38,347 bases of DNA, taken from positions 1-38,347 of the forward strand of contig VFYY01000018.1 of assembly GCA_016871375.1 (NCBI GenBank), read 5' to 3'. The position numbers and the translations under genes were made by a program. Below are positions 1 to 24,914 of this stretch, piece after piece (the first letter of the stretch is position 1; each line of letters begins with the position of its first letter). Under the pieces are notes generated by a model. It saw only the letters and a program-made list of their open reading frames with translations, had not been told where the DNA came from and made no database searches. Source of the stretch: Acidimicrobiia bacterium (lineage in GTDB: Bacteria; Acidobacteriota; Vicinamibacteria; Vicinamibacterales; UBA2999).

Positions 1-269
1 GACCGCGATCGGATCGTGCAGGCGATCCTCAACATCGTGAACAACGCCTTCGAGGCGACGCCGCCCGAAGGCAGGGTCACGGTCACCGTCGAGCGCCAGC
101 ACGACGCGAGCGTCGTGAAGGGGACCATGGCGGCGAGATCGAGGTCCGCAGCTCACGAGAAGAGGGGACCGAGTTCGTGCTGCGCTTCCCCGATCAGGCG
201 ACGGTGTCCGACACGGGTCAGCCGCCGATCGGGTCCCCGATGGCGGCCGACGGCTTCGCGCGCCGGTAG
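1..269 (+). pseudogene. Decayed sensor histidine kinase, C-terminal ATPase remnant
   Basis: The window opens inside a histidine-kinase ATPase domain. Frame 1 (from base 1) gives an N-box, QAILNIVNNAFEATPPEGR, followed by a beta strand TVTVERQ. The next recognisable piece, GGEIEVRSSREEGTEFVLRFP, is the conserved end of the same domain (after the G2 box), but it reads in frame 3 from about position 126 to the TAG at 267-269. The G1 (DxGxG), F and G2 boxes, normally 40-50 residues, are missing between them. A deletion of about 130 bp with a frame change explains this. Without G1/G2 the protein could not bind ATP, so I call it a pseudogene; a local assembly error is the alternative. It lies just upstream of the pseudopilin cluster and may once have partnered a sigma-54 response regulator. 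Confidence 0.7.
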
Positions 270-499: not shown

Positions 500-1171
500 A
501 TGAGACGCGGCGCCGCTGGACAACACGGGTTTACACTGCTGGAGATCATCGTCGTGCTTGCAGTGCTGGGCGCCCTTGCGGCCATGCTCGGCCCGATTGC
601 GTTCGGATACATCGAGCAGGGCAACGTCCGGCGCGCACAGGGCGACGCCCAGCGTCTGGCGGTGGCGATCAACAAGATGTATGTGGACACCGGCCGGTGG
701 CCGTACCTGGCCGACGGAGACGGTGCGAACGGCTACACCTCCGGGACAGACGCGGCCCTCCTCACGAGCAACGCCGCCTGCGCGGCAGGGACCTGCACGG
801 ATGCGACGCTGCCTGCGGACGGCACCAGCGGCTCGGCCTGGGCCCTCGGGTCGAGCAAACTCGAAAACATCGCCAATCAGCTGATTACGAACACGCCGCT
901 TGGCTCGACGGACGCGGACAAGGACTACAACATGAGCGGCCGTAAGGCATGGAGCGGCCCTTATGTCGAACAGCTGCCGACGACTGATCCGTGGCAGAAC
1001 AGCTATCTCGTCAGCGTCCGCAATCTTGACCCGTCGGTAGCGTATTCCTCGCTGAAGTGGGTCATCGTGATCTCGGCGGGGCCCAATGGCACACTCGAGA
1101 CGAGCCCCGAGCTGCTGATGACGTCGAACCCGGTGCCGGCCGGCGATGACATCGTCGGCCGCGTCAGGTAA
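500..1171 (+). CDS. GspG-like pseudopilin 1
   Basis: A 223-residue type IV pilin-like protein, probably processed by a prepilin peptidase and assembled by a type II secretion or type IV pilus machine in the inner membrane. The leader MRRGAAGQHG is followed by FTLLE (Glu at +5) and a hydrophobic helix of about 20 residues. The globular part has GspG hallmarks: DTGRWPY after the helix, WSGPYVEQLPTTDPW, and SAGPNGTLETS near the end. The ATG at 500 was chosen because it gives a normal short leader and has AAAGG about 5 bases upstream; the frame stays open upstream to 413. Six related genes follow on the same strand. No ATPase, platform or peptidase gene is present here. The C-terminal DDIVGRV recurs as DDIIAR in genes 2 and 5. 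Confidence 0.88.
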   Translation: MRRGAAGQHGFTLLEIIVVLAVLGALAAMLGPIAFGYIEQGNVRRAQGDAQRLAVAINKMYVDTGRWPYLADGDGANGYTSGTDAALLTSNAACAAGTCTDATLPADGTSGSAWALGSSKLENIANQLITNTPLGSTDADKDYNMSGRKAWSGPYVEQLPTTDPWQNSYLVSVRNLDPSVAYSSLKWVIVISAGPNGTLETSPELLMTSNPVPAGDDIVGRVR

Positions 1172-1182
1172 GAGCCGCTCGA

Positions 1183-1692
1183 TTACCGCTGCAGCAGGAT
1201 GAACGTGCCCGTGGGCCACAGCCACACTGTGCCCATGAGCACCGCTGCGATCACCACCGTCGTAATCAGCACGAGACGCGGCAGGTGCGTTTCGGCCGGC
1301 GCGCCAGCCGCAGTGGCGCGCGGCTTCATGAATGCGGCAACGAAGAGGAGCAGCGTTCCCACGGCGAGCACGGCCAGCCCCCAATCCAGTTGAACCGGCG
1401 GCGGCGCCTCCGCGATCCCAACGGCGTTCGGCGGCCCCGCGATGACCAGCGACCGGGCGGAGCGCACCGTGGTGATGATGGTCGCCATCGCCGTCAGGCC
1501 GACCGGCAGCAGCCATGCCGCGTGATTGCGGAGCGAGAGAGCGAGCGCGATCAACCCGATCGCCAGCATGACCCCGTTTCCGCTACGTACGTAGGTAATC
1601 CCGCCCACTTCCGGCAGGCTGACAACGGGCGCGAACGCCCCGACAGCAAGGCAAAAAGCTCCCAGAACTCCGAGCGTCTGGCGTGGCTGCAT
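1183..1692 (-). CDS. Small polytopic membrane protein, unknown function
   Basis: A 169-residue protein with about four predicted membrane helices (near residues 5-25, 40-60, 105-125 and 140-160) and a short proline-rich stretch (APPPVQLDW) between helices. I do not recognise a family. The ATG at 1692 is preceded by a clear GGGAG ribosome site; the frame remains open another 27 codons upstream but that part looks non-coding. It lies convergently between pseudopilin genes 1 and 2, with only 11 bases between the two stop regions, so it interrupts the pilin array on the opposite strand. Its 5' side faces the sigma-54 promoter region of pilin 2. An envelope role is possible but is only guilt by location. 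Confidence 0.7.
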   Translation of the reverse strand: MQPRQTLGVLGAFCLAVGAFAPVVSLPEVGGITYVRSGNGVMLAIGLIALALSLRNHAAWLLPVGLTAMATIITTVRSARSLVIAGPPNAVGIAEAPPPVQLDWGLAVLAVGTLLLFVAAFMKPRATAAGAPAETHLPRLVLITTVVIAAVLMGTVWLWPTGTFILLQR

Positions 1693-1899
1693 CGATTCTC
1701 CCTCAGAGGTCTTGCGCTGAACGGCTGCGCCACGTAGGATGCCACTCCCGGCTCGTCGGGACAAGACAATCACGCCGCGTGTAGGACGGCCTCGTATTTC
1801 GAGGGCTCTTCGTTTTTGGTAGCTTTCCCGCGGCTCGGAGCGACCGCGAGGGAAGTCGCAAAATGCTGTTATTAAACGACTTATATGCCCATCACGCGT

Positions 1900-1915
1900 T
1901 GGCCCATGGCTTGCT
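1900..1915 (+). promoter_or_regulatory. Sigma-54 (RpoN) promoter upstream of pseudopilin 2
   Basis: TGGCCCATGGCTTGCT carries the invariant GG (1901-1902) and GC (1913-1914) exactly 10 bp apart, with the flanking TGGC and TTGC of the -24/-12 consensus. The predicted start is near 1925, leaving a leader of about 50 bases with AGGAG at 1961-1965 before the ATG at 1976. The 1693-1899 upstream segment holds an imperfect inverted repeat (1822-1855) that could be an activator or structural site. Sigma-54 control is well known for pilin genes in other bacteria. Confidence 0.65.
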
Positions 1916-1975
1916 CATGTGCCCGGCGAGCTTCCGGGAATCCCCCCCGGATAGAGTTTCAGGAGCGGATGGGCA

Positions 1976-2635
1976 ATGACGAACGTGATGAAGAATCAGA
2001 AGGGTTTCACGCTGTTGGAGATCATCGTGGTGCTGGCCGTGCTCGGCGCCCTGGCCGCGATGTTGTCGCCCGTCGTGTTCCGGTACATCGACGACGCCAA
2101 CCGGGCGCGCACGCAGGCTGACGCGCGGACGATCGCGACGGCGATCCAGCGCATGTATGCGGATACCGGCCGCTGGCCGTTCTATGCGGACGGCAACGGC
2201 CAGACGGCGTACCAGACCGGCGTTGACGCCGACTACCTGGTGAGCGGCACCTGCCTGTTGGCGACGGGCTCGACCGACACGCTCGGCGAGTGCGGCGTTA
2301 CCGCGGCCATGATCGGCAGCGCTGCGGGATGGACCGCCGCGAACAAGGCTGATGGACTCACCCGGCAGCTTGTGACCAACGAAGGCGCCGCCGGAATCCA
2401 GTACAACGCGAGCTCGACCTTCCCGCGCGCCTGGAAGGGGCCGTACACCGACGCGATTCCGTCGGTTGACGCGTGGGGCAACCCGTACGTCGTGAACATT
2501 GGCGACGCGGCCGGTACGCAGGCAGTCTTCGTGGCGTCCGCGGGATCGAACGGAATCCTCGAGACATCCGCCGACACCACCTCGACGACGAACCTGACGC
2601 CCGGCGGCGACGACATCATCGCGCGCGTCAAGTAA
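1976..2635 (+). CDS. GspG-like pseudopilin 2
   Basis: A 219-residue prepilin-like protein. The leader MTNVMKNQKG is followed by FTLLE (Glu at +5) and the same helix start as gene 1 (IIVVLAVLGALAAML), so genes 1 and 2 are close paralogues. Downstream motifs are DTGRWPFYADG, WKGPYTDAIPSVDAWGNPY, SAGSNGILETS and a C-terminal GGDDIIARVK. Acidic residues in the C-terminal turn resemble the calcium loop of GspG, but I cannot confirm metal binding. It is the first gene after the sigma-54-type promoter at 1900-1915 and probably heads the transcript for genes 2 and 3; a hairpin terminator follows gene 3. ATG 1976 is preceded by AGGAG at 1961-1965. Its function is probably as a structural pseudopilin subunit. 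Confidence 0.88.
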   Translation: MTNVMKNQKGFTLLEIIVVLAVLGALAAMLSPVVFRYIDDANRARTQADARTIATAIQRMYADTGRWPFYADGNGQTAYQTGVDADYLVSGTCLLATGSTDTLGECGVTAAMIGSAAGWTAANKADGLTRQLVTNEGAAGIQYNASSTFPRAWKGPYTDAIPSVDAWGNPYVVNIGDAAGTQAVFVASAGSNGILETSADTTSTTNLTPGGDDIIARVK

Positions 2636-2696
2636 GAGCGCTGCGCGCATGCGGATGTAGAGCAAGTTGCGTTATAGCAAGGCATCTAGGAGAACG

Positions 2697-3503
2697 ATGA
2701 TGAGGTTCATCAAGAAGGTCACCCAGCGCCTTCTGGACATGCGCACCGGCCGGTTCGGCAGGGAAGACGGTCTGATCAACACGACCGACCTGCTCGTGGC
2801 CACGGCAGCGACGGTGGTCCTCGCGGCGGGCGTTGGCGGCACGGTCCTGAGCACCCTGGACGAGTCGAAATACGGCAAGGCGCAGCCCGACGCGCAGGCC
2901 ATCGGCCAGGCGATCATGACGTTCTACAAGGACACGGGAAAGTGGCCTGGTCAGAACGAGGACGCTGCGGATGAAGATAGCGTCACGCTCCTCGCCACGG
3001 GCAACATCGCAGATGAGTATCAGCTTCCCGCGGTCGCCAACGGCGGCCTCGAGTGGCCCGGCTTCACCGGTGCGACGGTCTGCGGCGCGAACAGCGGCCA
3101 GGGCTTCGTCAACGGTACGGTCGGCGCGGGCGAGTTCTACAACGGCACCGCGACGTTGCAGCTGGAGTCGGACGCCGCGTCGTTCCTCAATCTGAACGAC
3201 TTCCTCGTGCGCCGTCCGCTGCCGGAAGCGGCGTATCCGAACTGGCAGGGGCCGTACGTGCAGGAGATCACCAACGACCCGTGGGACCGCTCCTGGATTG
3301 CCTACCTCGCGCCGCTGTATTGCGCGGAGGCGGTGAGCAACGGCGGCGGCGCGCCGATCAACAACGGCGCCGGCTACCTCGGGTTCGCGTGGCTGCTCTC
3401 GGGCGGCACGAACCGCACGATTACGACCGACGCGATCGACTCGAACCTCGATCCGTTCGGTGACGACACGGGCGTTCAGCTCGGCAAGCTGACGGTCCAG
3501 TAA
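2697..3503 (+). CDS. Divergent GspG-like pseudopilin 3 without canonical Glu5
   Basis: A 268-residue protein whose globular part matches the cluster: DTGKWPGQNED, YPNWQGPYVQEITNDPWDRSW and a C-terminal LSGGTNRTITT. The N-terminus is atypical. After a 25-residue basic leader ending REDG comes LINTTDLLVATAATVVLAAG, so the +5 residue would be Thr, with Asp at +6, instead of the usual Glu. Minor pseudopilins of the GspK type also lack Glu5, but GspK is larger and differs elsewhere. Start ATG 2697 (or the adjacent ATG 2700) follows AGGAG at 2688-2692. Two Cys (in VCGAN and LYCAE) are shared with gene 4, which is clearly its closest relative. It may be a tip or initiating subunit, or may be uncleaved; neither can be decided here. 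Confidence 0.83.
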   Translation: MMRFIKKVTQRLLDMRTGRFGREDGLINTTDLLVATAATVVLAAGVGGTVLSTLDESKYGKAQPDAQAIGQAIMTFYKDTGKWPGQNEDAADEDSVTLLATGNIADEYQLPAVANGGLEWPGFTGATVCGANSGQGFVNGTVGAGEFYNGTATLQLESDAASFLNLNDFLVRRPLPEAAYPNWQGPYVQEITNDPWDRSWIAYLAPLYCAEAVSNGGGAPINNGAGYLGFAWLLSGGTNRTITTDAIDSNLDPFGDDTGVQLGKLTVQ

Positions 3504-3522
3504 GTCCCCAGCCCAATCCGCG

Positions 3523-3555
3523 GCGGGGCACCCGCACGGGTGCCCCGCTGATTTT
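3523..3555 (+). terminator. Rho-independent terminator after pseudopilin 3
   Basis: GCGGGGCACCC (3523-3533) pairs with GGGTGCCCCGC (3538-3548) over 11 bp, with a GCAC loop and TGATTTT downstream. It separates genes 2-3 from genes 4-7, which therefore need their own promoter or readthrough. Confidence 0.75.
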
Positions 3556-3597
3556 GCCCGGGACATGCGGATCGTCGAGAATGACAGAGGCCAGCGC

Positions 3598-4302
3598 ATG
3601 GACCGCCCCACGACACTCACCCGCAATGCTTCAGGATTCAGCCTCGTTGAAGTGGTCGTGGCGGTGGCGGCCGCGGTCATCCTGGCCGCGATCCTGACGC
3701 CGATGGCGTTCACGTGGATCGACGAGAGCCGGATCGCGCGGGCACACGCCGACGCGGCCACCGTCGCGGCCGCCATGGCGCGGTTCTTCCAGGACACCAA
3801 GAAGTGGCCCGGCCAGGTCGAGATTCTCGACAGCCCCGCCATTCGCTTCCTGACCGTGGGCGACGCCACGCCCGACTCGTTGCCGACGCTGGTCGGCACG
3901 ATCGGGATCGGCGCGGCAACGTGCGTGGACGGGCTCGGCGGCGTGCAGCCAGGTGTCACCTCGTTTGCCTCCGCGACGCCGACGACCGTGAACACGCTGA
4001 ATGTCACCGACCTGCTTCAAGTGCCGCCGCCGGCGGCCGATTACCCGAACTGGAAGGGCCCGTACCTGTCCAGCGAGGTCCAGAGCGACCCGTGGGGGAG
4101 TGTGTATCTCGTCAACGTGATTCCGCTGTTCTGCGGCGAAACGGTGACGCAGGCGGCGCCGGGCGGGTCGCTCGGGTTCGGCTGGATCATGTCCGCCGGC
4201 CCGAACCGGACGCTGCAGACCCCGTTCACCGCCGTGCGGGTTGCCGTGGACTCGGATGACGCAGGCGTCCCCCTCAGCAAACGGGTCGTCCAGGGCTCAT
4301 AA
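3598..4302 (+). CDS. GspG-like pseudopilin 4
   Basis: A 234-residue prepilin-like protein with leader MDRPTTLTRNASG followed by FSLVE (Glu at +5) and a hydrophobic helix. It resembles gene 3 in its globular part: FFQDTKKWPGQVE, YPNWKGPYLSSEVQSDPWGSVY, a shared Cys pair (TCVDG and LFCGE), a LGFGWIMSAGPNRTLQT ending and a similar C-terminal LSKRVVQ. Genes 3 and 4 thus form a second pair within the array. The ATG at 3598 has AGAGG upstream; an in-frame ATG at 3565 would give a leader 11 residues longer. It follows the terminator at 3523-3555 and is separated by about 30 bases from gene 5. Confidence 0.86.
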   Translation: MDRPTTLTRNASGFSLVEVVVAVAAAVILAAILTPMAFTWIDESRIARAHADAATVAAAMARFFQDTKKWPGQVEILDSPAIRFLTVGDATPDSLPTLVGTIGIGAATCVDGLGGVQPGVTSFASATPTTVNTLNVTDLLQVPPPAADYPNWKGPYLSSEVQSDPWGSVYLVNVIPLFCGETVTQAAPGGSLGFGWIMSAGPNRTLQTPFTAVRVAVDSDDAGVPLSKRVVQGS

Positions 4303-4331
4303 AGTCCGTTAGAATCAACTTGAGATCTCAG

Positions 4332-4991
4332 ATGCAACGTCTCCGGGCGGCGCGCGGCTTCACGATGATCGAGATGGCGCTCGTCCTGGGCGTCATCGCG
4401 GCGATTCTTGCCGCGCTGGCGCCGGCGGCGTTCACCTATATCCGCGACGCGCAGATCACGCAGGCGCAGAACGACGCCAACCAGATCGGCCGGGCGGTGC
4501 ACACGTTCATGGAGCACACCGCGCTCCAGCCGTACAAGAACAACACCTCCAACCCGAAGGTGAGCGCCAGGCAGTCCGGCGATTTCGACTGTCTGTACGG
4601 ACCGGGCAATGCCTTTTCGACCACCAACGACAGCACGGCCAGCGACTCGTGGACGAGCGCGGCGGGCGTGCAGTGCCAGTCCGGCAGCACGACCCGCGAC
4701 ACGCTGGAGAACCACCTGATTCTCAACACGCCGGGCGGCAGCGGCACGAAGGCGTACGTGACGACGGGCAAGATTGCGTGGCGGGGTCCGTACCTGCCCT
4801 CGATCTCACAGGATCCCTGGGGCAACGCGTTCCTCGTGAACATCGGCAAGGGCGACCCCGCCGCGACGACGAAGAAAGCGGTGTTTGTCATCTCCGCGGG
4901 GCCCGATGGCCTGCTCCAGACCAGCTCCGACGCCGCCCGCAGCGCCGTGGTCACCGCGAGCGGCGACGACATCATCGCGAGGATTCAGTGA
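4332..4991 (+). CDS. GspG-like pseudopilin 5
   Basis: A 219-residue prepilin-like protein: leader MQRLRAARG, then FTMIE (Glu at +5) and a helix rich in Ala and Ile. The globular part has IAWRGPYLPSISQDPWGNAF and SAGPDGLLQTSSDAAR, ending SGDDIIARIQ as in gene 2. The DTGxWP motif is replaced by HTALQPYKNN. Its start is uncertain: ATG 4332 has only a weak ribosome site, and a TTG at 4320 in frame would add four residues. Its TGA overlaps the GTG of gene 6 by four bases (4988-4991), showing translational coupling, so genes 5 and 6 are made together. A Cys pair (DCLYG and VQCQSG) lies in the middle region. Confidence 0.86.
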   Translation: MQRLRAARGFTMIEMALVLGVIAAILAALAPAAFTYIRDAQITQAQNDANQIGRAVHTFMEHTALQPYKNNTSNPKVSARQSGDFDCLYGPGNAFSTTNDSTASDSWTSAAGVQCQSGSTTRDTLENHLILNTPGGSGTKAYVTTGKIAWRGPYLPSISQDPWGNAFLVNIGKGDPAATTKKAVFVISAGPDGLLQTSSDAARSAVVTASGDDIIARIQ

Positions 4992-6301
4992 CCGCCGGGC
5001 GACGGCCGCTCCGGCGGCAGCACGGCTTTTCGTTCCTCGAGATGGTGGTCGCGCTCGCGGTTCTTGCGGCGATCGTCGCGTTCATGGCGCCCACGCTGCT
5101 GACGTCGCTGAGCGCGTCGCGTGAGGACGCGACGCTCGCCGAGATGGCGCAGATCTACCAGGCGATCCTCGGTGATCAGCGCGAGAACTTCGCCTACGCG
5201 GGCGACGTCGGCGATTACCCGTCCAGCCTGGACAAGCTGGTGAGCGACACGGCCACCGGATGGCGCGGCCCGTATCTGGGCAACGTCAACCGCGTCAACA
5301 GCATGCTGACGGACGGGTACGGGCAGCCCTACGAGTACTACCTCCTCACGGGCGTGTCCGGTTCCGATCGGCTGGCGATCATCAGCCGGGGTGCGGACGG
5401 GCTCTCGACGAACACGGCCATGAATCCGAATGTCGCCGCGAACTTCACGGGCGTGGCGCCGACTGACTCCGCCTATTTCGAGGGCACGAACAACGCCGAC
5501 AACATCGTCTACCCGACGCCGAGCTCGACGAACACGAACGCGCTCAACGTGAACATCACCGGTACGCTGGCGCTCAACATCCAGAACTTCGACTCGAACA
5601 GCCTGGTGAACGCGTTCGTCCCGGCGTGTCCGAATCTCTATCGGGTGACCGTCACCTCGCAGGCGCGCGGCACGGCCGTCGTCAGCAGCCTCGGGTACGC
5701 TCCCGGCTTTCAGGTCGACCTGCCGCAGGGGGTCTATCAGGTGCTCATCACGGCGCAGAACCTCACGGCCGCGCCGTTCAACGAGAGGCTGACCGTCATT
5801 CCCGGGCAGACGCTGACGCGTTCGCCCAACATCACCGGCCTCGACTCGAGCGGCACGGACAGTTTCGTCTTGACCGTTGTCAACAAGCAGCCGACCGAGT
5901 CGCTTCGCGTGTATCAGTTCGCCACGCAGCTCACGGCGCAGACCGGCAACACCGTGATTGCCGCCGGTGGGACGTCCACGTTCTCCGTGCGCGCGTGCGC
6001 GCAGGTGTTCATCAAGTCGGGCACGACGACGGCCATCCGCGATCAGGTGGTGATGCCGTGGAGCGCGGTGACGAAGAACGTCGGCGGGTCCGCCGCGACG
6101 CTGGCCGTCACGAACAACCGCGCCGACACGATCCGCCTCTACAACAGCGACATCTTCTTCGGCGAGGTCCGGAAGGGCAAGAGCCAGACGTTCACCGTCG
6201 GGCTCCTGGCCGGCGACGTTGTCCAGTCGCGCACCACGACTGGAACCGTGCTGACCACGCTGACGCTCAACACGGGCGCCAATACCCTCACTCAGAACTA
6301 G
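4988..6301 (+). CDS. Large pseudopilin 6 with C-terminal extension
   Basis: A 437-residue protein. Residues 1-150 are a GspG-like pseudopilin: leader ending QHG, FSFLE with Glu at +5, WRGPYLGNVNR, GYGQPYEYY and ISRGADGLSTN. Residues about 190-437 form an extra domain not found in ordinary pseudopilins, rich in Asn, Thr and Val with beta-strand character. It includes NFDSNSLVNAFVPACPN (Cys214), GYAPGFQVDLPQGVYQV, NITGLDSSGTD, VRACAQVFIK (Cys337) and VRKGKSQTFTVGLLAGDVV. The two Cys are conserved in gene 7 and could form a disulfide. The alternating PEGA- or Ig-like strands suggest a surface-exposed binding module on a pilus or pseudopilus tip; that is inference. Start GTG 4988 overlaps the stop of gene 5. 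A longer upstream frame exists but is shadow sequence. Confidence 0.82.
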   Translation: MTAGRRPLRRQHGFSFLEMVVALAVLAAIVAFMAPTLLTSLSASREDATLAEMAQIYQAILGDQRENFAYAGDVGDYPSSLDKLVSDTATGWRGPYLGNVNRVNSMLTDGYGQPYEYYLLTGVSGSDRLAIISRGADGLSTNTAMNPNVAANFTGVAPTDSAYFEGTNNADNIVYPTPSSTNTNALNVNITGTLALNIQNFDSNSLVNAFVPACPNLYRVTVTSQARGTAVVSSLGYAPGFQVDLPQGVYQVLITAQNLTAAPFNERLTVIPGQTLTRSPNITGLDSSGTDSFVLTVVNKQPTESLRVYQFATQLTAQTGNTVIAAGGTSTFSVRACAQVFIKSGTTTAIRDQVVMPWSAVTKNVGGSAATLAVTNNRADTIRLYNSDIFFGEVRKGKSQTFTVGLLAGDVVQSRTTTGTVLTTLTLNTGANTLTQN

Positions 6302-6305
6302 GCCG

Positions 6306-7609
6306 GTGCTCAACGTGGCCCACACCCCGGAGCGGCGCGGCCAGGGCGGATTCGCCCTCTTCGGCCTGCTCGCGCTGCTGGCCATCGTCGCCATGGGCCT
6401 GAGCGTCATGGTCGTCTTCGCGAACCGCGTGCTCGACGAGGATCGCGTGGACGTGGTCACCGACGAGCTCCAGGAGATCTACCGGGCGGTCGTCGGCGAT
6501 CAGCGCGACACCTTCGGCTACATCGGCGAAGTCGGCACGTATCCCGCGAGTCTCATTGATTTGACCGTCAACCCCGGCAATGCCGGCTGGCGTGGGCCGT
6601 ACCTCCGCGACCCGCGCGTCGGCAACAACATGCTGCTGGATCCGTGGGGCCAGCCGTACGAGTACTGGGTCATTGACGGGGTGTCCGGGTCAGACCGCCT
6701 GGCCATCATCAGCAGGGGACCAGATGGCCAGTCGACCAATACGGCCGCCGATCCCAACATCCGCACGTCCTTCACCGGGACGACGCCGGTCGACGCCGCC
6801 TATTTCTCGACCGCCGCGAACGCCGACAACGTCGTGTTCCCGCGGCCGGACGCGAGCCTGGCGGACACGCTGAACGTCAACACGGACAGCATCCTCAACA
6901 TCACGCTCAACAACTTCGACTCGAACAGCGTCGTCAACGCGTTCGTGCCGGCGTGCCCGAACCTGTTCCGCATCACCGTGCAGAACACCGATCGCGGCTC
7001 CAACGAGGTGAACAACATCGGCTACGCGCCGGGATTCCAGGTGACGCTCCCGCAGGGGACCTACCGCGTGTTCATCACGTCCTCGCTGCTGCCAACGGCC
7101 GTTGTCAACGATCGCATTGTCGTCTTTCCTGTCGTGCCGGTGTTCCGGACTTACAACACGACCGGACTCGACAGCAGCGGCACCGACCTGTACAACCTGC
7201 AGTTGACCAACTCGTATCCGCTCGACAGCGTGAGCATCTACGAGTTCGACACCTCGAAGGCACCGTGGCATCGGGCGGCATGGCCACGTTCGCGATCAAG
7301 GCGTGCTCGACGGTGAACGTCAAGATCAGCGGCACGACGGTCGAGTCGTTCACGATGCCGTATGGCGCGACCTTCTCGAAGATCGTCGGCGCCACAGCGG
7401 CATCCATCACGGTGAACAACAACCTGAGCGTGACCGTGAACGTCTACAACGACGGGCTGTTCATCGGCGACATCAAGAAGAACAAGAGCGACACCTTCTC
7501 GACCGGACTCGTCGCCGGCAACGTCATCACGGTCCGCCGCGCCGACACGAACGCGCTCGTGAGAACAGTGACGCTGGTCGCCGGGAACCAGTCTACGAGC
7601 GTTCCCTAA
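6306..7609 (+). pseudogene. Large pseudopilin 7, paralogue of gene 6, frameshifted
   Basis: The first frame (GTG 6306 to about 7259) and a second frame (about 7259 to TAA 7609) together give some 434 residues that align along their whole length with gene 6 (437): GWRGPYL, DPWGQPYEYW, SGSDRLAIISRGPDG, FDSNSVVNAFVPACPN, GYAPGFQVTLPQGTYRV, GLDSSGTD, then IKACSTVNVK and IKKNKSDTFSTGLVAGNV after the shift. At 7251-7265 the frame drops by one base with about five residues missing relative to gene 6. Uncorrected, translation would stop at 7316. The leader ends QGG and is followed by FALFG, so +5 is Gly and not Glu. No slippery heptamer is visible. It is either a recently broken gene or a sequencing or assembly error; the uniform coding quality of both halves favours a very recent event. 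Confidence 0.8.
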
Positions 7610-8039: not shown

Positions 8040-8906
8040 TCAGTGCCGGACCTTGCGGGCGAGCTCGAAGAGCACCGGCGCCTGCAGGTCGAGCCGCGCG
8101 ACGGCGTTGGCGTCGAGCCGCAGCTTCTGGAAGACGGGATCGGTGAGCGGATCGAAGTCGTCCATCAGGCACGCGAACCCGTAGCGGTGCGCCAGCCGGT
8201 TGGCCGCGTAGTTGACGGCCGCCGCCTGCGGGCGATCCACGGCCTGCTCCGGCGCGTGATGGAACACCACGGCATCGTGGAGCCGCGCGGGCAGGCCCCA
8301 CTGGCGCAGCAGGTAGCCGCCGAGCTCCGCGTGCTGCTCGCCCATGACCTCGACGAGGTCCTCCTCAGCGGGCGGGACCACCCCATAGCGCTCCGCCTGG
8401 CGCGCGAGCTTGATCACGAGCAGCTTGCCCACGTCGTGCAGCAGCCCGTAGAGGAACGCCTCCGGCGGATGCTCGCCCGCGTTCTCCGCGATGAGCCACG
8501 CCAGGTACGCCGTGCCGACGCTGTGGTCGATGTAGTCGCGGCCGCGCCGGCCGTAGATCTGCGGGTCCGTCGCCAGCGCGCTGAGGCACGTGGACGTCAT
8601 CACCGTGCGCACCAGCCCCGTGCCGAGCCGCACGACCGCCTCGTTGATCGAAGCGATCTCCTTCGACGAGGCGCTGAACGCCGAGTTCGCGAGCTGGATG
8701 ACGCGCGTCGCCAGGACCGGGTCCCTGGAGATGATCGCCACGATGGGGGCGACCGCCACCTCGGGGTCGAGCGCCAGGCTGACGATCTCCTGCGCCGAGG
8801 CCGGCAGCATCGGGATGGCGGTATCGGTGCCGTCCTTCCAGGCGCCTGAGCGCATCCAGTCGGTCCAGGCCGTACGAGCGGGAGCTGCGGTTGACGCGGG
8901 CGCCAT
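8040..8906 (-). CDS. HDOD domain signalling protein
   Basis: A 288-residue cytoplasmic protein dominated by an HDOD domain (about residues 30-230): IPMLPASAQEIVSLALDPEVAV at the start, then DPVLATRVIQLANSAFS and INEAVVRLGTGLVRTV, followed by the HD-like segment EAFLYGLLHDVGKLLVIKLA and VVFHHAPEQ. HDOD proteins are relatives of HD phosphohydrolases, usually without enzymatic activity, that act in two-component, c-di-GMP and motility signalling. This one keeps an HD pair (LLHDVGK), so catalytic competence is not excluded. The ATG at 8906 has a strong AGGAAGG site; the frame extends 17 codons further upstream without one. It is divergent from the 2OG oxygenase at 8986, with a repeat in the 80-base gap. 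Confidence 0.87.
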   Translation of the reverse strand: MAPASTAAPARTAWTDWMRSGAWKDGTDTAIPMLPASAQEIVSLALDPEVAVAPIVAIISRDPVLATRVIQLANSAFSASSKEIASINEAVVRLGTGLVRTVMTSTCLSALATDPQIYGRRGRDYIDHSVGTAYLAWLIAENAGEHPPEAFLYGLLHDVGKLLVIKLARQAERYGVVPPAEEDLVEVMGEQHAELGGYLLRQWGLPARLHDAVVFHHAPEQAVDRPQAAAVNYAANRLAHRYGFACLMDDFDPLTDPVFQKLRLDANAVARLDLQAPVLFELARKVRH

Positions 8907-8946
8907 TTGCCTTCCTAATCGGCACGTGCCGCAGGACCTTGAAGGC

Positions 8947-9000
8947 GGGCGAGGCACCTGTCCGCCGAAGCCTCGGCGAAGGCGGATGCCTCGCCCCTAC
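8947..9000. repeat. Split copy of the GGGCGAGGCA palindrome
   Basis: Arms GGGCGAGGCA (8947-8956) and TGCCTCGCCC (8987-8996) match the intact palindrome at 36457-36488, but here 30 bases (8957-8986), themselves a TCCGCC/GGCGGA hairpin, separate them. The element fills the gap between the divergent HDOD and 2OG-oxygenase genes, and its right arm overlaps the oxygenase ATG. Confidence 0.75.
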
Positions 9001-9582: not shown

Positions 9583-10773
<1,191 letters not shown>

Positions 10774-10789
10774 GCGGTGAATCGTCTTG

Positions 10790-10807
10790 GTCCGGCTGAA
10801 GCCGGAC
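10790..10807. repeat. Short hairpin repeat in the leader of the regulator gene
   Basis: GTCCGGC and GCCGGAC flank the loop TGAA. The palindrome lies in the 90-base gap between the propeller gene and the sigma-54 activator, both on the - strand, 17 bases upstream of the activator ATG. It could reduce readthrough or fold in the leader RNA. Confidence 0.55.
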
Positions 10808-10863
10808 ACTACGCTCGTTGAAGTACATCGGCGAACGTGCGCGGCGCGCTATCGGCGTCTGTC

Positions 10864-16188: not shown

Positions 16189-18129
16189 CTACGTGGCGGG
16201 GACGAGCGTCCGCCGCACGACGTCGTTGTTGACTTCGATGCGCATGCGGCCCTTGGCCTTGGTCATGTAGGCGCTGAAGAAGCGGCCGCGGCGCTCGTTG
16301 AGCAGCTCGGCGCGGAACGCCTCGCGCCCCTGCCGCAGCTCCTCGGGCGTCACCGGATCGCGCTCGACGACGCGCACGATGACGGTCGCGTCGCTCGTCG
16401 TGATCGGCTCGCTGACGGTCCCTGGCGCCAGCGTAAAGGCGACCCTGTCCACCTCGGGGCTCACGCCGACATCCGGCAGCGGCGACTCGCGGGCGATGAG
16501 CTCGGTGTCCTTGGCTTCGAGCCCCTGCGCCTTGGCGGCGGCGGCGAAGTTCGGCGCCGACCGGAGCGAGGTGGCGATCTCGTTGGCGCGCTGGCGGCTC
16601 AGCTCGGTGGCGCGCGCGCGGATCACGTCCTCACGCACGCGCTCCTTCACCTCGTCGAGCTGCGGCACGTACGGATCGCGCGTGCCGGTCACGGCGATGA
16701 ACACCGGGCCGCGCGGCGACGTGATCGGGTCGCTCACCGCGCCGTCGGCAAGCTGGAACGCCGCGCTGGCCACCTGCGGCGCCACGCCAAGCCCCGGAAC
16801 GGGATCGTCGCGCTGGAAGAACGCCGACTCGGTCACGGGGAAGCCGGTGTCGCGCGCCACGGTATCGAGGTCCGCGGGATCGTCGATCCTGCCGGCGAGC
16901 TCCGCCGCGCGCGTGGCAATCTGCTGGTCCGTCCGTTCCCACTTCAACTGGTCCTCGAGCTGCGGCCGCACCTCCTCGATGCTGCGTGTCACCGCGGCGC
17001 GCTTGTCCACGACCGTGATGATGTGGAAGCCGTACTGCGAGCGGACGAGATCGCTGATCGTGCCCGGCTCCAGCGCGAACGCCGCGTTCTCGAACTCCGG
17101 CACCATGCGCCCGCGGCCGAAGTAGTCCAGGTCGCCGCCGTTCGCCTTCGAGCCTTCGTCCTCGGAATGCTGCGTGGCGAGCGCGGCGAAATCCGCCCCG
17201 GCCTTCGCCTTGGCGAGCACGTCTTCGGCCTGCTTGCGCACCGCGGCTTCATCCTTGCCGGCGAGGTTGAAGAGGATGTGGCTGGCGCGGATCTGTTCCG
17301 GCGTCTGGTACTGGTTGAGGTTGTTGTTGTAGGCGCGCTGCACGTCTCCCGGCGCGACGTTCATCGTCTTGTGCACCTGGTCGCGATCGAGCAGCAGCAT
17401 CTTCACCTTGCGCTGCTCGCCGACGCGGTACTCGGCCGTGCGCGACTCGAAGTACGCGGCCACGTCGGCATCGCCCACCGTGACCTTGTCGCGGAACGCG
17501 TCGGCGGTGAGCGCGACGACCTGGAGCTTCACCTTCTCGTTGCGCTCGGTGAACTCGCGCGCCACGTCGGCGTCGGACACCGACATCCAGTCGGTGAGCG
17601 CGCCGCGCAGCTTGTCGATCATCATGCTGCGGCGGAGGTTCGCCTCGAAGTCGCCCGGCGTCATCGGCGGCACCTGGCTGCGGAGCAGCTGCGCGTAGCG
17701 CTCCTCGCCGATGAAGCGCCCGTTCTCCTGCAGGCCGGGGATCGAGAGAATCTGCTGGGCGAGCTCCTCGTCGCTGACCGTGATGCCCTGGCGCTCGGCT
17801 TCACGGAGCGCCGCCTGCTCGTCGATCATCTGCTGCAGGATTTGCTGCTCGATCCCGAGCTGGCGGAGGAGCTGGTCGCTCATGCCGCCGCCGTAGGCCT
17901 GGCGGTAGGCCTGAAGCTGGGCGTTGTAGCGGCGCCGGAACTCGGCCACCGTCAGGTCGCTGCCGTCGACCTCGGCGATGACCTCGCCCGGGGCGGCGAT
18001 GCCGGCCCCGACAATCATGGGATCGTCGAGAAAACTCGGGATATAAAAGACGATGAACGCGAGCACCACGAGCGCAAGGCTCCACTTGAGCCAGCCCTTG
18101 TGCCGACGCATCCGGTCCAGCATGGTCAT
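16189..18129 (-). CDS. PpiD/SurA-like membrane-anchored peptidyl-prolyl isomerase
   Basis: A 646-residue periplasmic foldase. Its N-terminus, MTMLDRMRRHKGWLKW then a hydrophobic helix (about 16-33), matches PpiD, which is anchored in the inner membrane near the Sec translocon and helps exported proteins fold. A SurA_N-like region follows (VIAEVDGSDLTVAEFRRRYN). The parvulin domain spans about residues 278-375: QIRASHILFNLAG, ATQHSEDEGSKANGGDLDYFGRGRMVPEFENAAFAL and VRSQYGFHIITV. Two further regions (residues about 430-500 and 560-620) resemble the degenerate parvulin part of PpiD. The ATG at 18129 follows GAGGAT; an internal ATG lies two codons later. It is divergent from the GGDEF gene at 18224. 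Confidence 0.9.
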   Translation of the reverse strand: MTMLDRMRRHKGWLKWSLALVVLAFIVFYIPSFLDDPMIVGAGIAAPGEVIAEVDGSDLTVAEFRRRYNAQLQAYRQAYGGGMSDQLLRQLGIEQQILQQMIDEQAALREAERQGITVSDEELAQQILSIPGLQENGRFIGEERYAQLLRSQVPPMTPGDFEANLRRSMMIDKLRGALTDWMSVSDADVAREFTERNEKVKLQVVALTADAFRDKVTVGDADVAAYFESRTAEYRVGEQRKVKMLLLDRDQVHKTMNVAPGDVQRAYNNNLNQYQTPEQIRASHILFNLAGKDEAAVRKQAEDVLAKAKAGADFAALATQHSEDEGSKANGGDLDYFGRGRMVPEFENAAFALEPGTISDLVRSQYGFHIITVVDKRAAVTRSIEEVRPQLEDQLKWERTDQQIATRAAELAGRIDDPADLDTVARDTGFPVTESAFFQRDDPVPGLGVAPQVASAAFQLADGAVSDPITSPRGPVFIAVTGTRDPYVPQLDEVKERVREDVIRARATELSRQRANEIATSLRSAPNFAAAAKAQGLEAKDTELIARESPLPDVGVSPEVDRVAFTLAPGTVSEPITTSDATVIVRVVERDPVTPEELRQGREAFRAELLNERRGRFFSAYMTKAKGRMRIEVNNDVVRRTLVPAT

Positions 18130-18223
18130 GGATGAGATCCTCTGTACAGACCGGTAATGATACCCTGTTCCGTGGTATATTTGTAGAGTTTAGAAGCACT
18201 TAGCGGCTTCTGCCGTGCGCCAC

Positions 18224-19306
18224 ATGTCCGAGCGTCCCCCGCCCCAACACGCGGTGACACCTCTTTCGACCAAGTCTGACTTCGCTGGCCGCCTCAAGGG
18301 ACGGGTGCGTGCGCTTCGTGCACGCATCGAGCACCCCGGCGCGATCATCGACGCCGTTCGTCAATCCAACGCCACGCTCGATCCGCAGAAAGTCGCGACC
18401 TGGCTGGTCCATCAGGCCGACGAGTGGATCCCCGCGCCCTGCTGGGCGGTCATCGCGCACGACGTCAACGGACAACTTGCCGTTCTGTCCGATCACGGAT
18501 TGACGCCCGCGCTGGGCCCCTCGCTCTGGGCCGCGGCGAACTGGGTGATGCGCAACGGCAGGGAGCTGCTCGTCGCCGACATGTCCGCGGACGAGCGCGG
18601 CGGCGCCAACGCCGTCGGCACCGTGATGGCATTCCCGCTGGTGTGCCGCCAGCACACCACGGGCGTGCTCGTCGCGATCGATCCGGAGCCCTCGACCGCC
18701 GCGCCTGGTCTCTCGCCTGCACTGATTCAGGCGATGCTGACCTGGCTCGAGCCGGCGGGCATCGCGCTCGACAACGCGCTGGCCCTGCAGAAGGCCGAGG
18801 CCCTGTCGGTCACCGACGACCTGACCCGGCTCTACAACCCCCGGTATCTCCACCTGGTCCTGCGGCGGGAGGCCAAGCGCGCCTCGCGCAGCGGCCGGCC
18901 CCTCTCGATGCTGTTCATCGACATGGACGGCTTCAAGAACGTCAACACCCTCCACGGCCACATGATGGGCAGCCAGGCCCTGGTCGAGGCGGGCGCCATC
19001 ATCCGCGGGAGCGCCCGGGAAACGGATGTGGTGGCCCGGTTCGGCGGGGACGAGTTCTCGGTCATCCTGCCCGATACGGGGCGGGACGGGGCCGTGGCGG
19101 TGGCCGAGCGCATCCGCGACCGCGTCCGGGTCTTCCCGTTCCTGGCCGAAGAGGGGCTGTCGGTCCAGTTGACGGCGTCCATCGGCGTCGCCACCCTGCC
19201 GGACGTGGCTGGATCGGCCGAAGAACTATTACGAGCGGCGGATAAAGCCATGTACCGGGTCAAGGACGGGGGCAAGGACGGGATTCACATTGCGGAAGAA
19301 GAATAG
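18224..19306 (+). CDS. Diguanylate cyclase with GAF-like sensor domain
   Basis: A 360-residue soluble protein that should make cyclic di-GMP from GTP. Residues about 30-195 look like a GAF-type sensor (ATWLVHQADEWIPAPCWAVI, VGTVMAFPLVCRQHTTGVLVAID). Residues about 200-358 are a GGDEF domain: LSVTDDLTRLYNPRYL, SMLFIDMDGFKNVNTLHGHMMG, the intact active site RFGGDEFSVILP (GGDEF at 274-278), TASIGVATLP and ADKAMYRVKDGGKDG. RETD (265-268) sits five residues before GGDEF, the position of the RxxD inhibitory site, so product inhibition is likely. The ATG at 18224 lacks a clear ribosome site; a GTG at 18215 is possible. A 7-bp array directly follows the stop, before mreB, so coupling to the shape operon is uncertain. 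Confidence 0.92.
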   Translation: MSERPPPQHAVTPLSTKSDFAGRLKGRVRALRARIEHPGAIIDAVRQSNATLDPQKVATWLVHQADEWIPAPCWAVIAHDVNGQLAVLSDHGLTPALGPSLWAAANWVMRNGRELLVADMSADERGGANAVGTVMAFPLVCRQHTTGVLVAIDPEPSTAAPGLSPALIQAMLTWLEPAGIALDNALALQKAEALSVTDDLTRLYNPRYLHLVLRREAKRASRSGRPLSMLFIDMDGFKNVNTLHGHMMGSQALVEAGAIIRGSARETDVVARFGGDEFSVILPDTGRDGAVAVAERIRDRVRVFPFLAEEGLSVQLTASIGVATLPDVAGSAEELLRAADKAMYRVKDGGKDGIHIAEEE

Positions 19307-19378
19307 CGGGCAGCGGGCAGCGGGCAGCAGGCAGGATGTTCGTGGTTCTGCCGGCTGCCGGCCGCTGGCTGCCGGCTG
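19307..19378. repeat. Two 7-bp tandem arrays between the GGDEF gene and mreB
   Basis: CGGGCAG is repeated three to four times at 19307-19334, directly after the GGDEF stop. A CCGGCTG-type array (CCGGCTG, CCGGCCG, CTGGCTG, CCGGCTG) follows at about 19350-19378. The two units are near complements of each other, so the RNA can fold into a long GC stem just upstream of the mreB ribosome site. Confidence 0.8.
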
Positions 19379-19390
19379 AAGGAGACGCCG

Positions 19391-20416
<1,026 letters not shown>

Positions 20417-20422
20417 CCGGAC

Positions 20423-21310
20423 GTGGCTCTTCTCGACATCCGCCAGCGCACCGGCTACCTGTTCATCGCGGTCATCGTCGCCCACATCATCCTGATCTCG
20501 GCGCAGGTGAACACGCGCCGCGGTGTGCCCGTGCTCGAGGCGGTCACCTTCGGCGTCTTCGCGGAAGTGCAGCGCGCCGCGTCGCTGGTGATCAGCGGCG
20601 TCCGCGCGTCGTGGTCCGATTACTTCGCGCTGCAGCAGGTTCGGCAGGAGAACGAGCGGCTGCAGCAGGAGCTCGCGCGGCTCCGCATCACCCTGCAGCA
20701 GGAGCGCGCGCTCGCGCAGCAGTCGCGGATGCTGCAGGACCTGCTCACGCTCAAGTCCGGGACGCCGCTGGCGACGACGGCGGCCGCCGTCATCGGCAGC
20801 GGCGCCAGCCCGGATTTCCGGACCATCACCATCGACAAGGGGACCGCGGAGGGGCTTCGGCCCGACATGTCCGTGGTGGCGCCGGCCGGTGTCGTGGGAC
20901 GCGTCATCACGCCAAGCGCCCGCGCCGCCAAGGTCCAGCTGCTCATCGACCGGAACGCCGCCGCCGCGGCGGTCGTCGAGCGGTCCCGGGCACAGGGGGT
21001 TGTGGAGGGAACGGGGGGCAACCTTCGCCTGAATTACGTGTCCGGCACCGCGGACGTGAAGGTCGGCGACCGGCTGGTGACGTCCGGCATCGAAGGGATT
21101 TACCCTAAGGGCTTTGTTATAGGTCAGATAGAATCAATACAGCGCGGCGCGGGCGAATTCAGCGCCATCGTGGTGACACCCGCGGTGGATTTTTCGTCGC
21201 TCGAGGCCGTGCTGGTTGTCCTGACGCCGCCGTCGAGCGATGTCGAAGAATCGACCACGCCGGCTGACAGTGAGGGTGCCGCCGACACCACCGCACAGGG
21301 TCGAGAGTGA
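20423..21310 (+). CDS. mreC: Rod shape-determining protein MreC
   Basis: A 295-residue bitopic protein linking MreB to periplasmic wall enzymes, including PBP2. One N-terminal membrane helix (about residues 11-27, GYLFIAVIVAHIILISAQV) is followed by a coiled coil (about 70-110, LQQVRQENERLQQELARLR) and the beta-rich MreC core: SPDFRTITIDKGTAEGLRPDMSVVAPAGVVGRV, VQLLIDRNAAAAAVVERSRAQGVVEG, VKVGDRLVTSGIEGIYPKGFVIG and VTPAVDFSSLEAVLVV. The acidic, Thr-rich tail (about 30 residues) is not conserved. Start GTG 20423; its stop overlaps the start of mreD by four bases (GTGA at 21307), so the two are coupled. Confidence 0.95.
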   Translation: MALLDIRQRTGYLFIAVIVAHIILISAQVNTRRGVPVLEAVTFGVFAEVQRAASLVISGVRASWSDYFALQQVRQENERLQQELARLRITLQQERALAQQSRMLQDLLTLKSGTPLATTAAAVIGSGASPDFRTITIDKGTAEGLRPDMSVVAPAGVVGRVITPSARAAKVQLLIDRNAAAAAVVERSRAQGVVEGTGGNLRLNYVSGTADVKVGDRLVTSGIEGIYPKGFVIGQIESIQRGAGEFSAIVVTPAVDFSSLEAVLVVLTPPSSDVEESTTPADSEGAADTTAQGRE

Positions 21311-21807
21311 AAGCGGTCGGCGTGTTCGTCGCCATCGCTCTGGCGCTGGCGTTGCAAACGACGCTGGCGCGATTTCTGGTTGGCGGCATTGCCGCCCTCG
21401 ACCTGGTGCTCGTCGTGGTCGTCTACGTGGCGCTGACGACCGGGCCTGTCAGCGGAATGCTGGCCGGAAGCGCGGCAGGGATCATCCAGGACGCGCTGTC
21501 GAGCGGACTGATCGGGGTCGGGGGGCTGGCGAAGTCGATCGTCGGGTTCTGCGCGGGCGTCGTCGGCCAGCAGTTCATCGTCACCGCGGCGCTGCCGCGG
21601 TTCCTGATGTTTCTCGGCGCCACGGCGGTGCACTCGGGGATCTCGATGGGACTCTACGTGCTGCTGGGGTTGCGCAGCTTTCCGTCGCCCTGGGCGGCCG
21701 TGGTCAGCCAGGCGCTCGGCAACGCGGCGGTCGGGATGATCGCGTTCACGATCATCGAGGCCGTGCCCGGGGTGATTGAGCGGCGTCGGATGCGGAGACG
21801 ATTGTAA
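21307..21807 (+). CDS. mreD: Rod shape-determining protein MreD
   Basis: A 166-residue polytopic inner-membrane protein of the elongasome, with about five hydrophobic segments and little sequence conservation, as usual for MreD. Recognition rests on position between mreC and the PBP2 gene, on size (MreD is about 160-170 residues) and on hydrophobic pattern: ALALQTTLARFLVGG and LDLVLVVVVYVAL at the start, GMLAGSAAGIIQDALSS (a typical MreD segment) and a basic C-terminal tail RRRMRRRL. GTG 21307 overlaps the mreC stop. The PBP2 gene begins 4 bases after its stop. Confidence 0.9.
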   Translation: MKAVGVFVAIALALALQTTLARFLVGGIAALDLVLVVVVYVALTTGPVSGMLAGSAAGIIQDALSSGLIGVGGLAKSIVGFCAGVVGQQFIVTAALPRFLMFLGATAVHSGISMGLYVLLGLRSFPSPWAAVVSQALGNAAVGMIAFTIIEAVPGVIERRRMRRRL

Positions 21808-21810
21808 GAG

Positions 21811-23775: not shown

Positions 23776-23777
23776 CC

Positions 23778-24863
23778 ATGTTCGAGCGACGGCTGTATCA
23801 CCACATCGACTGGGGCCTCATCACGGCCGTGGCCGCGCTGTGCGGCCTCGGGCTCGCCAATATCTACAGCGCCACGGGCGGGTGGACGGGCATCGTTCAG
23901 ACGCAGATCTCCGGGATCGTCCTCGGGACGATTGCGCTGATCGTCTGCCTGAGCCTCGACTACCGGTCGCTGGCCGACAAGTCGCACTTCATCTACATCG
24001 CGATCGTTGCGCTCCTGATCTACGTGCTCTTCTTCGGCGCCGTGCGCGGCGGTTCGCGGCGCTGGATCGATCTCGGTCCCGTCAACCTGCAGCCGTCGGA
24101 GTTCGCGAAGGCGGCGCTGGCCCTCGTGCTGGCGAAGTTCTTCGGCGAGAGCCGGCGCTGGAGCGTGACCCGCGTCGACCTGCTGATCGCGGGTGCGCTC
24201 ACCGCCGTCCCTGTGCTCATCATCGCGCGGCAGCCCGACCTCGGGACGGCGGTGACGCTGATCCCGGTGGCGCTTGCCATTGCCTACGTCGCCGGCATGC
24301 CCATGCGGCTCCTCGGCACCCTCGCGGTCGTGGGGGTGCTCGCCGCGCCGGTGGCGTGGAAGTTCGCGCTCCAGGACTACCAGAAGGAGCGCGTCGAGAC
24401 GTTCCTGAACCCCGAGCAGGACGCGCGGGGGGCGGGGTATCAGCAGATTCAGGCCCGTATCACGGTGGGATCCGGCGGGCTGTGGGGGAAAGGGTTCAAC
24501 GAGGGGACGCAGGGCCAGCTGCGGTTCCTCCCGGTGGCACACAACGACTTCATCTTCTCGGTGCTGGCCGAGGAGCATGGGTTCGCCGGCGTCCTCGTGG
24601 CGCTGGGGCTGTACCTGTTCGTCATCCTGCGCGCGCTCGAGGCGGCCCGGCTGGCCAAGGACCGGCTCGGCGCGTACCTGGTGCTCGGGGTCCTCGCGAC
24701 CTTCACGTTCCAGGTCATCTACAACATCACCATGTCGGCCGGCCTCGCGCCGGTCAAGGGACTGACGCTGCCGCTCATGAGCTACGGCGGATCCTCCATG
24801 ATTGCCACGCTGGCGGGATTCGGCCTCATCCTCAACGTGCGGATGCGTCGTTTCACCAATTAG
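23778..24863 (+). CDS. rodA: RodA, SEDS-family peptidoglycan glycosyltransferase
   Basis: A 361-residue membrane protein with about ten helices that polymerises glycan strands from lipid II together with PBP2. SEDS hallmarks are RRWIDLGPVNLQPSEFAKAALALVLAKFF, IIARQPDLGTAVTLIPVA, GSGGLWGKGFNEGTQGQLRFLPVAHNDFIFSVLAEEHGF (holding the catalytic Asp of the family) and the C-terminal GLTLPLMSYGGSSMIATLAGFGLILNV. The ATG at 23778 follows the PBP2 stop closely. It is the last gene of the mre cluster; the RNase E/G gene follows after 51 bases, an arrangement (mre-rod-rng) seen in several phyla. Confidence 0.96.
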   Translation: MFERRLYHHIDWGLITAVAALCGLGLANIYSATGGWTGIVQTQISGIVLGTIALIVCLSLDYRSLADKSHFIYIAIVALLIYVLFFGAVRGGSRRWIDLGPVNLQPSEFAKAALALVLAKFFGESRRWSVTRVDLLIAGALTAVPVLIIARQPDLGTAVTLIPVALAIAYVAGMPMRLLGTLAVVGVLAAPVAWKFALQDYQKERVETFLNPEQDARGAGYQQIQARITVGSGGLWGKGFNEGTQGQLRFLPVAHNDFIFSVLAEEHGFAGVLVALGLYLFVILRALEAARLAKDRLGAYLVLGVLATFTFQVIYNITMSAGLAPVKGLTLPLMSYGGSSMIATLAGFGLILNVRMRRFTN

Positions 24864-24914
24864 GGGTGGCGATGATCCTGCGGTCCGCGGCCGCCGCCCC
24901 TCGGAGCTTCGGGC

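Follow-up and report, generated by a model that had tools for sequence, protein, structure and literature searches.

In most of the type IV filaments described so far a single major subunit dominates, or a very few do, and in cyanobacteria the pseudopilin clusters known as Hps are linked to polysaccharide genes. The mannose-sensitive haemagglutinin (MSH or MSHA) pilus has mshA, mshE, mshG, mshL and mshM as its mandatory genes, and MSHA-like systems are known mainly from Gammaproteobacteria, with detections in a few other groups (Denise et al., PMC6668835). Filaments of Streptococcus sanguinis contain two major pilins that are stochastically arranged (PMC10628169), and both modular pilins and tip complexes capped by a subunit lacking the glutamate at position 5 (Glu5) have been reported (PMC10191384). 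Here we examine a window that is the whole of contig C18 of G000, the genome of an uncultured member of the Acidobacteriota (38347 bases end to end) and that carries seven consecutive prepilin-like genes, g1 to g7, all on the forward strand between positions 500 and 7609. Gene order in related genomes suggests that this array probably supplies the pilins of a single MSHA-like type IV filament locus, with its machinery just off the contig; we take it for a known kind of machine with unusually many subunits, and not for a system that lacks a machine. We found no description of multi-GspG or Acidobacteria pilin arrays in the open-access literature.

Machinery beside the orthologous arrays

A first-pass annotation of the window had described an array without machinery. 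This is true of contig C18 only, as orthologous arrays adjoin machinery; the array looks machine-less because the contig is cut beside it, inside a sensor histidine kinase gene. The same kinase sits immediately 5' of the pilin array in the relatives G014, L089 and L090, and the tail retained in the window matches those of G014 (57.5% and 69% identity in two blocks) and L090 (65% and 83% in two blocks) by tblastn. In L089, an Acidobacteria groundwater metagenome-assembled genome (MAG; JACPZW010000023.1), the locus runs from the secretin through an ExeA-type ATPase, a TPR protein, an NtrC-type regulator, GspF and the kinase to g1, g2, g2', g3 and g4, so that its five pilins comprise three of the g1/g2 type together with g3 and g4. 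The 97717-base locus contig of G014 (JAHFUO010000001.1) reads ExeA, an opposite-strand isomerase, ATPase, PilM/N/O-like genes, secretin, ExeA, NtrC, GspF, kinase, g2, g3 and g4, where the contig ends; its secretin, ExeA, NtrC, GspF and kinase are 77%, 68%, 73%, 70% and 61% identical to those of L089, respectively. L090 holds GspF, the kinase and then two g1/g2-type genes. The succession of GspF, kinase and pilins is common to the three MAGs, the secretin, ExeA and NtrC genes are present in the two longer loci, and the MshEN-type ATPase is present in one. Read against this gene order, the missing machinery is an artefact of the contig edge, and the case illustrates how such an edge can make a system look machine-less. 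The borrowing of a machine from elsewhere, which the same annotation had offered, is not what the relatives suggest, since their array belongs to a locus for an MSHA-like type IV filament.

Domain searches of the relatives' machinery returned Secretin with Secretin_N_2, AAA_22, HATPase_c and TPR, as well as MshEN with T2SSE for the assembly ATPase of G014, T2SSF for the platform protein of G014 and other relatives, and Sigma54_activat, a sigma-54 activation domain, for the NtrC-type regulator of the locus. The MshEN domain of MshE binds cyclic di-GMP. The secretin has TIGR02519 (MshL) as its best match, at 217.5 bits against a cut-off of 250.2, and scores 170 bits with the GspD model, for which the cut-off is 351. 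The ExeA-type protein beside it belongs to AAA_22 and the TIGR03015 family, and a model search of the relatives' loci gave no MshM-specific match for this protein.

A probable further part of the locus is found on another contig of the same assembly. Contig C57 carries paralogs of g6 (68% identical) and of g7 (intact, and 77% identical over the N-terminal part), followed by a LuxR-type gene, GspH-, PilV-, PilW- and PilX-like minor pilins, an ExeA-type ATPase and an opposite-strand isomerase, and it ends in an assembly ATPase that is cut off after its first 197 residues. With the ATPase of G014 this fragment shares 69% identity, and it has the same two neighbours, ExeA and the isomerase. C57 and C18 both end inside genes where G014 has the missing block, and synteny suggests that C57, a gap of approximately 12 kb, and C18 probably make up one locus. 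A single prepilin peptidase was found in G000, on contig C1. The GspF-GspE-PilMNO set on contig C44 was rejected as the direct partner, its ATPase being only 38% identical to that of G014, against 69% for the C57 fragment; a secretin on contig C221, considered as the missing part, has unrelated neighbours and no visible link to the array. Two further genes of the C57 locus (L017) deserve mention. One, at 9876-10667 (+), is oriented against the g6/g7 paralogs and encodes a protein whose C-terminal motif is GspG-like; this product lies on a long branch with the modular pilins of G048 in the tree described below. The other, at 3799-6726 (-), encodes a 975-residue PilX-like protein with a weak HpsA match (NF038301, 29 bits against a 400-bit cut-off) that covers a short stretch only.

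Beyond these closest relatives, a profile of the array detected strong homologs in 18/146 genomes of the order and in 18/396 genomes sampled across the phylum, and arrays of 3 to approximately 14 genes are found not only in several genomes of this order but also in other families of Acidobacteriota. The neighbourhood reading left out three genomes of low guanine-cytosine content (G251, G362 and G167). In G080, G098 and G100, whose loci each lie on one contig, the genes run in order from the secretin, ExeA and in part TPR through a block of G-like genes, 4 or 10 in number, to PilM/O, NtrC, ATPase and GspF. G041 has approximately 14 G-like genes downstream of the secretin and ExeA, and is flanked on the far side of the array by a polysaccharide locus that includes a gene for a Wza-like exporter; the ATPase, GspF and PilM/O set of G041 is located elsewhere on the same contig. 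Six G-like genes surround the same kind of machinery in L093, a MAG labelled Proteobacteria. Related genomes therefore do not show the one or two copies that would have counted against an array system, and the conserved subgroups and order bear out the claim that many GspG-type subunits belong to one array.

The subunits and their promoters

The features of the array are collected in the table below. Genes g2 to g7 form a tight block with intergenic spacings of 61, 61, 29, -4 and 4 bp, while g1 stands 804 bp from g2 with an antisense open reading frame (ORF) in between, which we regard as an interruption of the array rather than a member of the system. The annotated run of seven consecutive forward-strand prepilin-like genes holds in that all match T2SSG and share the GspG motif; it needs amending in that g7 is frameshifted, g1 is set apart by the antisense ORF, and g3 and g7 lack Glu5. 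This residue, numbered in the mature protein, is present in g1, g2, g4, g5 and g6 and is replaced by Thr5 in g3 and Gly5 in g7; Thr5 also occurs in both g3 orthologs examined, and Gly5 in the C57 paralog of g7. The g5 ortholog in G048 is 60% identical across 216 residues. At about twice the usual pilin size, g6 and g7 are set apart from the rest, and g6 consists of a GspG-like domain plus approximately 270 additional residues that are predicted to be beta-rich. In this assembly g7 is split over two frames, 6306-7316 and 6953-7609. Because the reading frame stays open beyond the frameshift (window 7250-7270), with 72% identity there to the paralog on C57, the lesion would be recent or an assembly error. 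The kinase tail, too, is shorter than its orthologs by approximately 40 residues in the ATP-binding region and changes frame at bases 120-123, which may indicate either a broken gene or an assembly fault at the contig edge.

Table. Features of the pilin array and its contig edge in the window (aa, amino acids; percentages are identities)
Feature	Position	Strand	Evidence
Sensor histidine kinase, C-terminal tail (HATPase_c part)	1..209	+	tblastn; cut by contig start
g1, GspG-like prepilin, 223 aa, 10-aa leader, FTLLE (Glu5)	500..1171	+	T2SSG, TIGR01710; 53% to G014 g2
ORF for a membrane protein in the g1-g2 interval; no family match above cut-off	1183..1773	-	ORF and Pfam search
Sigma-54-type promoter TGGCCCA-TGGC-TTGCT	1900..1915	+	Exact match to TGGCNCRNNNNTTGCW; 76 bp upstream of g2 start
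g2, GspG-like prepilin, 219 aa, FTLLE; opens tight block g2-g7	1976..2635	+	T2SSG, TIGR01710, AlphaFold2 model
g3, GspG-like, 268 aa, 25-aa leader, LINTTD, Thr5	2697..3503	+	T2SSG, TIGR01710; 58% to G014 g3
g4, GspG-like prepilin, 245 aa, FSLVE	3565..4302	+	T2SSG, TIGR01710; 63% to G014 g4
g5, GspG-like prepilin, 219 aa, FTMIE	4332..4991	+	T2SSG, TIGR01710; ortholog in G048
g6, modular prepilin, 437 aa, FSFLE; 4-bp overlap with g5	4988..6301	+	T2SSG
g7, modular prepilin, FALFG (Gly5)	6306..7609	+	T2SSG; one frameshift near 7262

Profile searches of each protein confirmed the family assignment that had been read from the sequence. All seven exceed the cut-off of Pfam T2SSG (PF08334), at 25.5-31.5 bits against 21, and all seven have TIGR01710 (GspG) as their best NCBIfam match, at 26-68 bits. 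Because these scores fall 20 to 60 bits under the equivalog cut-off of 88.85, we call the array proteins GspG-like and not GspG proper. The shared GPY...DPWG...SxGPxG pattern is the GspG motif, and Klebsiella PulG (5wda) aligned, weakly and via a related pilin, to the GGY/DPWG/SLGPDG stretch; D212 and D213, putative calcium-site residues of the C-terminal loop, are invariant in our alignment (A5). A solved MshA chain was matched in the profile search through the N-terminal helix only, and matches in PHROGs are mostly to N-terminal pilin helices. The AlphaFold2 model of g2 has a mean predicted local distance difference test (pLDDT) score of 75, and its best six matches in the Protein Data Bank are all major pseudopilins of the type II secretion system (T2SS), the closest being PulG/EpsG (probability 0.93, template-modelling score for the target 0.63, E-value 0.12), a result that is consistent with a GspG fold but weak. 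Matches of the g6 model to immunoglobulin-like folds were set aside, the model being too poor to interpret.

A maximum-likelihood tree built from 66 pilin domains places g3, g4, g5 and g1/g2 each with orthologs from other genera, whereas g6/g7 join the modular pilins of other genomes in a deep clade of their own. The proposed subgroups (1 and 2, 3 and 4, 5, and 6 and 7) are supported by this tree; g1 and g2 are not separated in it and may reflect a lineage-level duplication. Values of dN/dS between orthologs or paralogs are 0.18-0.56 in a simple Nei-Gojobori count, which is rough in that codon bias is ignored and synonymous sites are partly saturated. These ratios and the ortholog groups in the tree show array genes that are old and under purifying selection, and the alternative raised earlier, that they are unconstrained decaying duplicates, does not fit them.

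The site upstream of g2 is the sole mismatch-free match to TGGCNCRNNNNTTGCW in the window, and similar sites lie 68-82 bp upstream of g1/g2-type genes in G014, L089 and L090. Across loci, a good sigma-54-type site is present at most 200 bp upstream of 24/66 G-like genes compared with 7/293 other genes (Fisher p = 4e-14, the genes being related by descent and so not independent); the score weights were set from general knowledge of the consensus, and gene starts are approximate. On the reverse strand, a short way past the array, the window also encodes an HDOD-domain protein (8040-8957) and a second NtrC-type response regulator with a sigma-54 activation domain (9586-10809).

Further from the array, ppiD-like, mreB, mreC, PBP2, rodA and RNase E/G genes lie within approximately 20 kb of it in both the window (16189-26543) and L182 (1-11150) of genome G150, which belongs to another family of the phylum; their similar order possibly represents ancestral synteny. 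Two large genes of the window (26667-29975 and 33513-36449) have similar starts, with a carboxypeptidase regulatory-like domain that was judged from sequence only in the second, and the product of the first has an outer-membrane beta-barrel domain (Pfam).

Alternative explanations and a proposed filament

Several observations weigh against placing the array in an MSHA-like locus. The junction between C18 and C57 is absent from the assembly, and a secretin and GspF of the array's own system were not found in it; the secretins and platforms of G000 sit in other loci, and a true loss of the middle genes is possible. The kinase-tail deletion and the g7 frameshift could be real decay. The array is patchily distributed within the order; in G150, a ten-gene array with kinase and NtrC upstream has no core machinery within the approximately 40 kb fetched; the g6 model is poor (pLDDT 43) except for a confident last beta domain (residues ~370-437); and we infer both filament co-assembly and subunit roles from the genes. 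The missing secretin and GspF and the two lesions could also be expected if the machine had been lost in G000 and an orphan array borrowed either the type IVa pilus of C1 (PilB-PilT-PilC) or, from C44, the GspF-GspE-PilMNO set, and the G150 array tells us that separation from the machine does occur. We nevertheless consider this quite improbable, as C57 and C18 both end inside genes of the same system at the block that is missing relative to G014, just as one would expect of an assembly gap, the assembly has 295 contigs and a completeness of 91.7%, and purifying selection persists on the array genes. An array far from its core machinery is seen in the G150 lineage and not among the closest relatives of the window array. 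Functionless, decaying tandem duplicates would account for the two lesions and the patchy distribution, yet six genes are intact, orthologs and their order are conserved across genera, dN/dS is below 1 and promoter positions are conserved; we rejected this explanation on the ortholog groups and the rough dN/dS count, and regard it as very improbable.

The array might instead belong to a T2SS with a multi-subunit pseudopilus, which would work as a short piston in the periplasm and export proteins or polysaccharide. GspG is the best match of the subunits and PulG/EpsG that of the g2 model, polysaccharide genes stand beside the G041 array, a Wzy_C ligase follows g4 in L089, and the PilX-like protein of C57 has its weak HpsA match, all of which would suit such a system. 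The secretin, ExeA and TPR genes make this reading less likely, and we judge it unlikely overall: the secretin fits MshL over GspD and has Secretin_N_2, the ATPase has an MshEN domain, and the MSH gene set has counterparts of the ExeA and TPR genes. Reading the loci by eye turned up no GspC, GspL or GspM, although no search with their models was made.

If the array does form the pilin block of an MSHA-like filament locus, its subunits would be trimmed by the prepilin peptidase encoded on C1, and the kinase and NtrC-type regulator would turn on the sigma-54 promoters. The tip could be primed by the GspH/PilV/PilW/PilX-like minor pilins of C57 together with the Glu5-less g7, and perhaps g3; we propose this position because reported tip complexes are capped by a Glu5-less subunit (PMC10191384). 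The MshEN-type ATPase and GspF would then polymerise the Glu5-bearing g1, g2, g4 and g5 into a mixed or switchable shaft, on which the large modular g6 and g7 may present beta-rich domains for adhesion or cargo, and the filament would exit via the MshL-like secretin. By analogy with S. sanguinis a pilus of mixed subunits is plausible, and alternating use of the subunits fits equally well. More tentatively, and with considerable doubt on our part, the arrays could represent a type IV filament class that has yet to be described, present in Acidobacteriota and in one further phylum or more, in which one filament is built from 4 to approximately 14 GspG-type pilins, many with their own sigma-54-type promoter, and its composition is programmed or switched by the resident kinase/NtrC pair. 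Having 4 to approximately 14 GspG-type pilins per MSHA-like machine would make the handling of many similar subunits testable, and would extend MSHA-like systems to Acidobacteriota.

Comparison with described systems

In subunit fold class the array resembles a T2SS, as it does in the DPWG...SxGPDG motif region, GspF, the GspE-family ATPase, the secretin and the GspH-like and PilV/PilW-like minor pilins. A T2SS has one G-type gene, whereas the array has many, of which two encode G-like subunits without Glu5 and two encode proteins of about double size; in place of GspC-GspD-GspL-GspM, the secretin, ExeA and TPR set of the array loci points to MSH. The Hps clusters resemble it in the link between pseudopilin and polysaccharide genes and in the weak HpsA match of the PilX-like protein of C57; that match is confined to a short stretch, and the array relatives carry core filament machinery in the same locus. 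The heteropolymeric type IV pilus of S. sanguinis (PMC10628169) offers a precedent for two major subunits in one filament, but its host is monoderm and it has two major pilins only; for the array, mixed assembly is a proposal.

The MSHA locus is the closest counterpart. Like it, the array loci combine an MshEN-type extension ATPase, a GspF/PilC-type platform (in the role of MshG), an MshL-like secretin, an ExeA-type AAA protein (MshM), a TPR protein (MshN) and a pilin block with minor pilins nearby. We describe the system as MSHA-like, and not as a member, because its secretin falls under the MshL cut-off, its ExeA lacks a specific model match and its pilins match GspG over MshA. It further differs from MSHA in its 4 to approximately 14 GspG-like genes, in the kinase and NtrC genes built into the locus, and in the sigma-54-type promoters that precede many of the pilin genes.

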